A DNA stretch of 64,000 bases, from positions 7,688,001 through 7,752,000 of the forward strand of contig NZ_CP042437.1 in assembly GCF_007971525.1 (NCBI RefSeq). The letters run 5' to 3'. Shown here in pieces: positions 19,532 through 28,924 of this stretch (position 1 is the stretch's first letter; the number at the start of each line of letters is the position of its first letter). The stretch is from Mucilaginibacter ginsenosidivorax. GTDB lineage: Bacteria; Bacteroidota; Bacteroidia; Sphingobacteriales; Sphingobacteriaceae. The position numbers and the translations under genes were made by a program. Below the pieces are notes generated by a model. The model was not told the DNA's origin, made no database searches, and saw only the letters and a program-made list of their open reading frames with translations.

Positions 19532-21667
19532 TTATTTTTCTGTTTTTGGGGCTTCCGGCCTCGGTAACAATGCTTTACGCGATAACTTAAGTTTACCTTG
19601 TTTATCTACATCAAGCAATTTAACCCTTACCTCGTCGCCAACTTCAAATATACCGTCCATTTTTTCGATCCTGCGGTGGTCTATTTCAGATATGTGTAAC
19701 AAGCCATCTTTACCCGGCATAATTTCAACAAATGCACCAAACGGCATAATTGATTTCACTTTACCTTCGTATATCTCGCCTACCTCTGGTTTAGAAGCAA
19801 TGTTACGGATACGCGATAAAGCCTGGTCGATAGACGCCTTGTTGTCGGCAAAAATCTGAACGATACCCTGGTTATCTTTTTCTTCGATAGAAATAGTTGC
19901 ACCGGTTTCGCGTTGCATTTCCTGGATGATTTTACCACCGGGCCCGATAACTGCACCAATAAATTCTTTATCAATTTTAATGGTAACAATACGCGGAGCG
20001 TGTGGTTTCAGATCAACACGAGGGGCCGTAATGGTTTTAGCCATCTCGCCAAGGATATGTAAACGACCATCTTTAGCCTGGTTTAAAGCGTTGGTTAACA
20101 CTTCATACGATAGGCCATTAATTTTCAAGTCCATTTGTACGGCAACAATACCGTTGGTGGTACCGGTTACTTTAAAGTCCATATCACCTAAATGATCTTC
20201 GTCGCCCAGGATGTCAGATAAAATGGCATATTTAGTACCCATTTCGTTGGTGATCAATCCCATCGCGATACCAGATACCGGGTTGGTAATTTTGATACCG
20301 GCATCCATCAAGGCCAATGTACCGGCACAAACCGTAGCCATTGACGATGATCCGTTTGATTCCAGGATATCAGAAACGATACGGATAGTGTATGGATTTT
20401 CATCCTCAGATGGTAATACTTGTTTTAACGAACGCATAGCCAGGTTACCATGACCAATTTCGCGGCGACCAGCACCCCTGTTCGGACGAACTTCGCCGGT
20501 TGAGAAACCTGGGAAGTTATAGTGCAACAGGAATTTTTGGTAACCGTTGATGAACGCGCCATCAATCATTTGCTCGTCATCTTTAGCACCTAAGGTAACG
20601 GTGGTTAATGATTGTGTTTCGCCACGGGTAAATACCGCAGAACCGTGAGCAGATGGTAAATAGCCAACTTCGCTCCATATTGGGCGAATCTGGGTAGTTG
20701 TACGGCCATCTAAACGTTTGCCTTCATCTAATACAAGGTTACGGATAGCATCATACTCCACATCGTGGTAATATTTTTTGGCAAGACCTTTAGTGATATC
20801 ATCAATTTCGCCTAAAGTAGCGATATAAGCGTCACGTACTTCTTTAAATTTAGCACCACGCTCGTCTTTTGCAGAAGCAGAAGAAGCGATAGTGTAAACC
20901 TGATCGTAAGTAGCGGCGTAGATGGCTTTTTTCAAGTCCTCGTTGCTGTGTTCGTGGCTGTAAACGCGTTTTTCGGTTTTGCCAACCTCAATAGTTAACT
21001 CTTTTTGAGCTAAACATTGAATTTTGATAGCTGTGTGTGCAAATTTGATAGCCTCAACCAATTCAGCTTCCTGGATCTCTTTTGATTCACCTTCAACCAT
21101 GTTGATGTCATGCTCGCTACCTGCAACAATAAATTCTAAAGTAGCGTTTTCAAGCTGGCTAAGGGTTGGGTTAATTACCAACTGACCATCAATTTTAGCA
21201 ACACGAACTTCAGAAATTGGGCCATTAAACGGAATGTTTGATACAGATAATGCTGCTGATGCTGCCAAGCCGGCAAGGCAATCGGGCATAATATCTTTAT
21301 CGGCCGAAATTAAAGAGATCATCACCTGTGTATCAGCGTGATAATCTGAAGGGAACAACGGGCGTAATGCACGGTCAACCAAACGCGAGATTAAAACCTC
21401 ATAGTCTGACAAACGTGCCTCACGGCGTAAAAAACCACCCGGTATACGACCGGTGGCAGCGTATTTTTCCTGGTAATCAACAGAAAGGGGTAAAAAATCA
21501 ACTCCCTCTTTCGCTTCCGGCGACGATACTACGGTAGCCAATAACATGGTATCGCCCATTTTAATAACTACAGAGCCATCTGCCTGTTTGGCCAGTTTTC
21601 CTGTTTCGATCTCAATGGTGCGGCCGTCACCTAAATCAATAACTTTTTTAATTACGTTTAAACTCAT
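19532..21667 (-). CDS. pnp: Polyribonucleotide nucleotidyltransferase (PNPase)
   Basis: The protein has 711 residues from the ATG at 21667; a GTG seven codons upstream is less likely. Two RNase PH domains (about 10-220 and 315-545) are followed by a KH domain (about 550-610, [15 protein letters not shown]) and an S1 domain (about 620-690, [20 protein letters not shown]). The phosphorolytic core [14 protein letters not shown] is present. It degrades mRNA from the 3' end and acts on tRNA trailers. It lies downstream of rpsO as in many bacteria, with a terminator hairpin between them that may attenuate read-through. Confidence 0.98.
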
Positions 21668-21747
21668 CTTCTTTTTGTTGTGGTGCACTTTTCATCTTTC
21701 GGAGCGCACCGGTTTTTTATGTGTGTGTGTATAATTTTTTCAAAAGT

Positions 21748-21782
21748 AAAAAAGCCATCCACAAAATCGGGATGGCTTTTCA
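21748..21782. terminator. Terminator-like hairpin between rpsO and pnp
   Basis: A perfect 10-bp stem (21751-21760 with 21770-21779, AAAGCCATCC) is flanked by A and T runs. It lies 20 bases after the rpsO stop and would end or attenuate leftward transcription before pnp. Confidence 0.75.
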
Positions 21783-21798
21783 ATAAAAAGTATGAGAA

Positions 21799-22077
21799 TT
21801 ATTTAATGATATCCCTTAGCTGTAAAGCTTTGATGATAGCACGATATCTTTCAATGTCTTTTTTGTACAGGTACGCTAACAAACCGCGGCGTTTACCTAC
21901 TAATTTTTGCAGTGATAACTGGGTAGAAAAATCGTGTTTGTTTTTCTTAAGGTGACCAGTTAAGTGTGCGATGCGGTGAGTGAATAATGCTACCTGACCT
22001 TCGGTTGAACCAGTGTCTGTAGCACCCTTACCGTGTTTTGCAAAGATCTCTGCCTTTGTCTCTTTACCTAAATACAT
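21799..22077 (-). CDS. rpsO: 30S ribosomal protein S15
   Basis: The protein has 92 residues, close to the usual 89. The conserved segments DTGSTEGQVALFTHRI, LTGHLKKNKHDFSTQ and LVGKRRGLLAYL are present. S15 binds 16S rRNA early in small-subunit assembly and in several bacteria represses its own translation. The rpsO-pnp order is conserved widely. A Bacteroidetes-like -7 element lies 48 bases upstream. Confidence 0.98.
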   Translation of the reverse strand: MYLGKETKAEIFAKHGKGATDTGSTEGQVALFTHRIAHLTGHLKKNKHDFSTQLSLQKLVGKRRGLLAYLYKKDIERYRAIIKALQLRDIIK

Positions 22078-24728: not shown

Positions 24729-25682
24729 CTAAACCAAATACTCTCCGGCTTTTCCATATTTTTCCAGCTGCCTGATGCCGGTGCTCGAGATATGCTCAAA
24801 CTCCATATCACAAAATATGGCAATTACATTGATATTTTTATCGCCAAGCTCCTGCATATAGCGGTACTGGTTTAATTCGTATTGCAAATCCGATCCATTG
24901 CGTAGGCCTCGGATTATTGTTACCGGGTAGCCCAAGTTACCGGTAAAATCAGTTAGTAAGCCTTCGTAGGTGGCTAATTGCCTGTACTTTAAAATATCGG
25001 GTAAAGCATAACTGGTGGCTTCTTTACCGGGGTTAACTCCGCGGGCTATGATTACCTTATCAAATACCTGTTCTGCTTTTTGCAGTATGTTAAAGTGTCC
25101 TTTATGGAATGGATTAAAACTACCGGGGTAAACTGCTATCCTGGGCTGGCGGGTACGCACGTAGTCAATTAAATACTCCAGGGCAGGGTTGTTTACATTT
25201 TGCTGTAAACTCCGCAACACCTCTACCCTCTTTTCGCGGTAAATGGAATAATCAACAAACTGAAACTCCTTAAATATCTGCTGCTCATACTGCAGCAATT
25301 TATCAAACGGCTGCGTGAGAATATTTAAATCGGCATCACAAAACACTTTTGACAGTTCTGTTTTGGGCTGATGAGTTTTGGTATCGAGGATGATCTGCGT
25401 TACTTCATCCTTTAAATGCTGGTCGCCGATAAACACCTCATTAAAATACTTAGCCGAGTCCTCTTCGTTTGTAACCGAACGCGGATCATAAATAATATCG
25501 TGAAATACTGTAGCAAGCAGTAATGCATGATTATCGGCAAAACCTTTCAATTCCAGTTGACTGCACAAATCGTCCAGATGATCCAGCGTATGGTAAAACC
25601 GGTGAGGCTCGCGGTAATGGTTTAATATGTCCGCATCAAGGCCAAGTTCGATGAGCCGGTTTGTTTGTTCTGTAATTTTCAT
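24729..25682 (-). CDS. HD-domain phosphohydrolase fused to CoaD-like nucleotidyltransferase
   Basis: The protein has 317 residues in two parts. Residues 1-175 resemble the COG4339-type HD superfamily (HRFYHTLDH at 27-35, FHDIIY with His61-Asp62, CDADLN near 115). Residues 180-317 are a phosphopantetheine adenylyltransferase-like domain with YPGSFNPFHKGH (HxGH at 193-196), RGLRNGSDLQYE (258-269) and ISSTGIR (298-304). CoaD makes dephospho-CoA from pantetheine phosphate and ATP. The FNPFHKGH box also resembles NadD-type enzymes, so substrate is not certain. It could be the cell's only CoaD or a second, divergent enzyme. Confidence 0.87.
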   Translation of the reverse strand: MKITEQTNRLIELGLDADILNHYREPHRFYHTLDHLDDLCSQLELKGFADNHALLLATVFHDIIYDPRSVTNEEDSAKYFNEVFIGDQHLKDEVTQIILDTKTHQPKTELSKVFCDADLNILTQPFDKLLQYEQQIFKEFQFVDYSIYREKRVEVLRSLQQNVNNPALEYLIDYVRTRQPRIAVYPGSFNPFHKGHFNILQKAEQVFDKVIIARGVNPGKEATSYALPDILKYRQLATYEGLLTDFTGNLGYPVTIIRGLRNGSDLQYELNQYRYMQELGDKNINVIAIFCDMEFEHISSTGIRQLEKYGKAGEYLV

Positions 25683-28504: not shown

Positions 28505-28924
28505 ATGGATACTCCCATCTACTCTACCTTCGAAAGCGAGTTTCGTGTACGCCCCGACGATATAGACATGTTTCAACACGTACACAACAGCAAATATTTT
28601 GATTATGTATTGGCCGCCCGGTACGATCAGATGGAACGTTGCTACGGTATGGCTATGGAAAAATTTATGGAGCGCGGTTTTGGCTGGGTAGTGCGTGTAG
28701 CCCATGTAGACTATAAACGCGCGCTCACTATGGGCGACTACTTCATCGTAAAAACCGGCATCGAAAGTATCGACGACAAAGGCTGCCGCGTAAAATTCAG
28801 CCTAAGCAACAAAGCCAACGGCAAAATATGCTGCGACGGCTATTTTGATTACGTAATGATTGATATGGCCACCGGAAGAAGCGCCAAGGTACCTGAAGAT
28901 GTAATTGCACATTATACTATTTAG
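28505..28924 (+). CDS. Acyl-CoA thioesterase, hotdog fold (YbgC/FadM type)
   Basis: The protein has 139 residues, the typical single hotdog length. It carries the 4-hydroxybenzoyl-CoA thioesterase pattern RPDDIDMFQHVHNSKYFDYV, with the catalytic Asp and following HVHN, then VRVAHVDYKRALTMGD. It would hydrolyse acyl-CoA thioesters in the cytoplasm. The stop codon TAG is followed at once by a perfect GGTCATT array. Confidence 0.9.
   Translation: MDTPIYSTFESEFRVRPDDIDMFQHVHNSKYFDYVLAARYDQMERCYGMAMEKFMERGFGWVVRVAHVDYKRALTMGDYFIVKTGIESIDDKGCRVKFSLSNKANGKICCDGYFDYVMIDMATGRSAKVPEDVIAHYTI

Follow-up and report, generated by a model that had tools for sequence, protein, structure and literature searches.

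The closest described precedent for a protein joining an HD metal-hydrolase to an HxGH adenylyltransferase of a cofactor pathway is NadD-YqeK of the mycoplasmas (JCVISYN3A_0380), in which the HD domain YqeK hydrolyses wrong-nucleotide products of the fused NadD (PMC9426524). There, the partner NadD belongs to NAD synthesis and the YqeK-family HD domain is C-terminal, whereas the protein described here combines a phosphopantetheine adenylyltransferase (PPAT) of CoA synthesis with an N-terminal domain of a different HD family. Two other known proteins likewise join a CoA-pathway domain to a phosphatase. The archaeal bifunctional PPAT/NTP phosphatase PRK01170 (NF002250) consists of an archaeal-type PPAT and a phosphatase unrelated to the HD domain of the fusion; its model matches our protein weakly, in the HxGH region. 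PANK4, an animal protein with unrelated domains, carries a pantothenate-kinase-like domain and a DUF89 phosphatase that is thought to pre-empt damage. The HD half also has stand-alone counterparts in several other phyla, namely unfused proteins of approximately 180-225 amino acids with an EPHRxYHTxxH motif (presumably COG4339), which share 31-40% identity and the same invariant residues with it. The sequence-only reading had called the joining of the two domains unusual. This holds for the pair of HD and PPAT, of which no description was found in the literature searched (PPAT-HD fusion, COG4339, Bacteroidetes coaD; most subscription journals lay outside the scope), but not for HD-adenylyltransferase fusions as such, as NadD-YqeK is a precedent.

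Architecture and Distribution of the Fusion

The window, i.e., the whole stretch of 64,000 nucleotides that was analysed, encodes a protein of 317 amino acids on its reverse strand, with an ATG start and without internal stops. The gene and its parts are as follows:

24729..25682, minus strand: whole fusion gene, HD and PPAT (CoaD-like), 317 amino acids (ORF and full-length homologues)
25149..25682, minus strand: HD phosphohydrolase domain, residues 1-178 (AlphaFold2 model, structural matches, stand-alone homologues)
25143..25307, minus strand: C-terminal helices of the HD domain, residues 126-180, still present in HD-less relatives (R152 in 24/24 short forms)
24732..25142, minus strand: PPAT/CoaD-like adenylyltransferase domain, residues 181-317 (TIGR01510 at 182-311; PPATs in the PDB)

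An AlphaFold2 model of the whole protein, with 42 aligned fusions as input (pLDDT 91, pTM 0.87), shows ten helices (residues 1-177) and, immediately after them, an alpha/beta nucleotidyltransferase domain that starts at residue 182. The catalytic residues of both the HD and the PPAT site are all present in the protein. With an unbroken reading frame, two intact active sites and an occurrence in more than 40 genomes, the initial description as an HD hydrolase fused to a CoaD-like adenylyltransferase is borne out, and the HD-CoaD fusion is a real, conserved protein. A degenerate domain was considered and rejected for both sites.

Within the order of the window, 151 genomes were searched (44 of the same genus and 107 of other genera). 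The fusion occurs in 7 of the 44 Mucilaginibacter genomes (six besides the window genome, with 63-68% identity), next to one C-terminal remnant, and in none of the 107 genomes from other genera. A scan of approximately 85,000 species yielded around 40 full-length fusions. Besides Mucilaginibacter species, these comprise many uncultured Bacteroidota (51-57% identity), Cytophagales/Microscillaceae (41-48%) and Kapaibacterium/Ignavibacteria MAGs (about 45%). In total, 43 intact fusions align from end to end. Among pairs that are unsaturated at synonymous sites, dN/dS is about 0.07-0.1 for the HD domain and about 0.01-0.06 for the PPAT domain; judged by these ratios, purifying selection acts on both domains.

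The Adenylyltransferase Domain

The NCBIfam coaD profile TIGR01510 matches residues 182-311 of the window protein with 83.7 bits (E 1.4e-23). As this score lies below the curated cut-off of 103.3 bits, the protein is classed with a divergent CoaD-type clade and not with the canonical equivalog. The cut-off is reached by only one of the 29 fusions outside Mucilaginibacter (G174, 103.9 bits), and G346 scores 107.4 bits. The more general nucleotidyltransferase profile of Pfam, CTP_transf_like, matches above its cut-off. In structural terms, the domain superposes on solved PPATs with Z values of about 16 over 134-137 residues (e.g., 7yy8: Z 16.7, rmsd 1.9, 134 residues; the E. coli CoaD structure 6b7a: Z 16.5), and its top structural matches are all PPATs. 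The following motifs were assigned by alignment with E. coli CoaD and by residue role (PMC12784347), the last three also by conservation among the fusions:

25095..25124, minus strand: GSFNPFHKGH (residues 187-196), nucleotide-binding HxGH motif; S188 corresponds to E. coli T10 and H196 to H18
25023..25025, minus strand: K220, corresponding to E. coli K42
24900..24911, minus strand: RGLR (residues 258-261), corresponding to E. coli R88-R91
24783..24788, minus strand: S299-S300, corresponding to E. coli S128-S129

The PPAT site also contains D265 and E269. The window protein has equivalents of E. coli T10 (as S), H18, K42, R88, R91, D95, Y98, E99, S128 and S129. For T10, H18, K42, R88, R91, S128 and S129, structure and mutation have demonstrated a part in binding or catalysis in the H. 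pylori or E. coli PPAT (PMC12784347). G187, F189, P191, H196, K220, G259, R261, D265, E269, S299 and S300 are invariant in 43/43 fusions. While the fusion shares its fold and these residues with canonical CoaD (TIGR01510; E. coli, T. thermophilus 1od6), approximately nine residues after K42 are deleted, the last C-terminal helix is absent and the HD domain, or a remnant of it, is present at the N terminus. In a phylogenetic tree, all fusions and HD-less short forms fall into a single deep clade apart from standard CoaD (100/100).

Gene Content and Replacement of Standard CoaD

Patterns of replacement are the main evidence for PPAT function in the fusion-type and HD-less proteins. Outside Mucilaginibacter, the fusion is the only coaD-type (TIGR01510-type) gene in 29/29 fusion genomes tested. 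The next gene of the pathway, coaE, was found in 28 of these 29, hence missing data do not explain the absence of another coaD. At the level of the phylum, a standard coaD is present in 215 out of 218 genomes with a completeness of at least 95%; the remaining three carry the fusion or an HD-less form. One family is divided by genus: the fusion is present in g55 and g103, standard CoaD in g110 and a protein of 211-245 amino acids without the HD catalytic half in g113. The family of a Sediminibacterium MAG (81 genomes, with unread sequences classified by the length of the open frame) comprises nine genomes with standard CoaD only, 32 with the fusion and 33 with an HD-less form of approximately 200 amino acids; of the remainder, one has both the fusion and an HD-less form (possibly a stray contig), one has standard CoaD and a split fusion, and five have none. 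Based on the sole-PPAT pattern and the presence of coaE, the fusion-type enzyme almost certainly fills the role of CoaD in genomes without another coaD, and the gene counts indicate that its divergent CoaD part replaces standard CoaD in many genomes.

A separate observation concerns locus L178 (G463, positions 955-1908), where the HD and PPAT parts of the fusion are encoded by two different ORFs; this genome also has a standard-CoaD-like match.

Probable Redundancy in Mucilaginibacter

The sequence-only reading had proposed to look for a separate coaD in the genome, and one is present: the window genome encodes a second, standard CoaD, intact and 153 amino acids long. A standard coaD was also found in the other Mucilaginibacter fusion genomes checked. 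The combination of a separate conserved coaD with lost catalytic residues, named at the outset as grounds to abandon the idea, thus applies in its first half only, as no catalytic residue of the fusion is lost. In the standard CoaD of the window genome (L002, 1450-1911), FDPVTKAH stands in the position of E. coli FDPITNGH, with the catalytic His retained.

Given this second gene, it is quite conceivable, if somewhat short of an even chance, that the fusion is a dispensable extra copy in this genus, without an important role and on its way out. Its sparse occurrence (7/44 genomes) fits this reading, as do the remnant and the premature stops in the fusion genes of two Mucilaginibacter MAGs, i.e., G113, which is among the seven, and L062. 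The opposite is suggested by the complete set of catalytic residues and by the strong purifying selection where the gene is intact (dN/dS of 0.065 for HD and 0.008 for PPAT between L035 and L036). The premature stops (L006/L040 for G113) may be real or assembly errors; sister species carry intact copies. The remnant (L011 of G042, positions ~1501-1740) lies upstream of rpsO, covers residues 237-316 and is 88% identical to the window protein, which points to a recent gene loss in a close relative. In the lineage of the window, the fusion beside standard CoaD probably represents a second PPAT, either redundant or specialised, that is being lost in some species.

The HD Domain

The Pfam HD profile (PF01966) scores the window protein at 13.8 bits, below its gathering cut-off of 22, and reaches E 0.01 for 9/47 members of the HD family. 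The assignment therefore rests on motif and fold, and the domain represents a divergent HD subfamily. The motif consists of the following residues, each invariant in 43/43 fusions and in the stand-alone family:

25590..25592, minus strand: H31 of the EPHR-x-YHT-xx-H motif
25578..25580, minus strand: H35, predicted metal ligand
25497..25502, minus strand: H61-D62, HD dyad
25329..25331, minus strand: D118, last metal ligand of the H...HD...D motif

Across the 47 HD sequences, this H...HD...D metal motif (H31/H35, H61-D62, D118) is equally invariant. Modelled alone, the domain reaches a pLDDT of 97 and its structural matches are mostly HD-superfamily hydrolases. Class I phosphodiesterases rank best (Z 12.7 over 176 residues), ahead of further matches such as YpgQ, YedJ and small alarmone hydrolases (SAH, Mesh1), with Foldseek E-values of 0.03 and up. 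YqeK is absent among the structural matches listed, which still leaves room for kinship. A PDB sequence search with the HD domain alone returned no match, and the HD family profile gave matches at E 0.07-0.08, including a weak one to YqeK (2o08, E 0.08). By motif and model, the N-terminal domain is a metal-dependent HD hydrolase.

In 33 genomes of one family and six of another, an HD-less form of about 200-245 amino acids is the only PPAT gene. What these forms retain corresponds to residues ~126-317 of the fusion, with the last HD helices (which may be a structural part) still in place, and they consequently look like trimmed fusions instead of the ancestral state. A tblastn search near the HD-less genes did not find the HD half; the only matches were in L177, a full fusion, and L178, the split fusion. 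The tree implies about seven changes between the fusion and HD-less states, at least four of them forced by well-supported branches, with the caveats that the bootstrap is not fully settled and that long branches are present. On this phylogeny, relatives have lost the HD half by deletion on at least four occasions. As these deletions leave the sole PPAT in place, the transferase is indispensable and the HD domain accessory. The metal site itself is all or none: the ligand set is complete in 43/43 fusions and in 0/24 short forms, and no full-length fusion with a dead HD site occurs among the 43. This favours catalysis over a scaffold or structural role.

Proposed Function and Alternative Readings

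We favour, with moderate confidence, a bifunctional CoaD in which a C-terminal PPAT is joined by an N-terminal HD hydrolase acting at the transferase step. The C-terminal domain would transfer AMP from ATP to 4'-phosphopantetheine, yielding 3'-dephospho-CoA and PPi. Homology, the active-site residues and the replacement seen in gene content all lend strong support to this reaction. In most of the lineages that carry the fusion, it would be the only PPAT of the cell. The HD domain would be catalytically active on a compound at this step. By analogy with NadD-YqeK, our best guess is that it cleaves the diphosphate of dephospho-CoA-like products, and so disposes of those that are in excess or aberrant (deoxy forms, forms derived from CTP/UTP, or damaged ones). 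The lack of the residues after K42 and of the canonical C-terminal helix in the PPAT domain counts against this bifunctional reading.

A more specific version, which we put forward only tentatively, holds that the HD domain is a built-in editing or sanitising enzyme of CoA synthesis, hydrolysing wrong-nucleotide dephospho-CoA analogues or CoA-type RNA caps, and thereby the equivalent in this pathway of proofreading by NadD-YqeK. The divergent CoaD that carries it would have taken the place of the standard one in several Bacteroidota-related lineages. PPAT can cap RNA (PMC10761072), and removal of such CoA-type caps by the HD domain would be an alternative to product disposal. Several further points count against the favoured reading: the HD domain resembles YqeK only weakly, its closest fold being that of class I cyclic-nucleotide phosphodiesterases, the domain order is reversed compared to NadD-YqeK, no CoA genes adjoin the fusion and the repeated loss of the HD half shows that editing is inessential.

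Regarding the gene neighbourhood, no CoA genes were found beside the fusion in 40 fusion loci and the window. Fusions in Mucilaginibacter are flanked by rpsO-pnp on one side and a divergent hot-dog thioesterase on the other. In the window (19532-22077 and 28505-28924), extra genes have inserted between these neighbours and the fusion: towards one side an S41-like peptidase, towards the other an M61-like peptidase plus one more ORF. In the uncultured Bacteroidota (L041-L061), insulinase-like (M16) peptidase genes regularly adjoin the fusion on the same strand.

Another possibility, which we consider unlikely, is that the HD domain is a phosphatase of 4'-phosphopantetheine (or another pantetheine-phosphate) that clears damaged or surplus substrate before adenylylation. 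The intact HD metal site in 43/43 fusions and the existence of HD monophosphatases such as YfbR (PMC8177086) would be compatible with such a role, but a link to phosphopantetheine phosphatases in sequence or fold is lacking, and structurally the domain comes closest to phosphodiesterases and nucleotide diphosphatases. The analogy is with PANK4/DUF89, where a phosphatase is fused to a CoA-pathway enzyme. It is similarly improbable that the HD domain has a regulatory role, as a nucleotide-binding domain or an alarmone/Ap4A hydrolase, and tunes PPAT without a direct tie to CoA intermediates. The SAH, Mesh1 and YpgQ folds among its structural matches speak for this, and so does the wide spread of stand-alone homologues without CoA-gene neighbours, with a coaD-like gene within 5 kb in only 1/39 loci (L094). 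The PPAT-specific fusion across distant lineages, on the other hand, suggests a link to that very reaction. In locus L094 (4968-9452), from an actinobacterial MAG, the stand-alone HD relative lies approximately 3.3 kb from the coaD-like gene, just after recG-like and rsmD-like ORFs.

The resemblance of the HKGH box with FNP to NadD-type enzymes had been taken to leave the substrate open. Use of NMN/NaMN in place of phosphopantetheine is, however, very improbable: the models for NadD and NMN/NaMN adenylyltransferases match only a stretch of ~35 residues around HxGH (residues ~181-215), far below their cut-offs, while the coaD profile extends over the domain at 1e-23, the K42, R88, R91, D95, Y98, E99 and S128-S129 equivalents are in place, the top structural matches are all PPATs and 29 genomes with the fusion have no other PPAT gene. 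NadD/NMN specificity was accordingly rejected on profile extent, fold and gene content, and the domain is assigned on this evidence as PPAT (CoaD)-type and not NMN-type. Finally, a sequencing frameshift that fused two genes, suggested earlier as a possible refutation, can be dismissed with near certainty, given the same architecture in 43 separately assembled genomes.

Implications

CoaD, an essential enzyme, is also a drug target. Lineages with only the divergent form mostly score under the standard coaD cut-off and would therefore seem to lack this step; recognition of the fusion-type enzyme closes this apparent gap in the pathway. The natural deletions of the HD half, in turn, offer a ready comparison of the same transferase with and without HD, which bears on built-in editing in cofactor synthesis.
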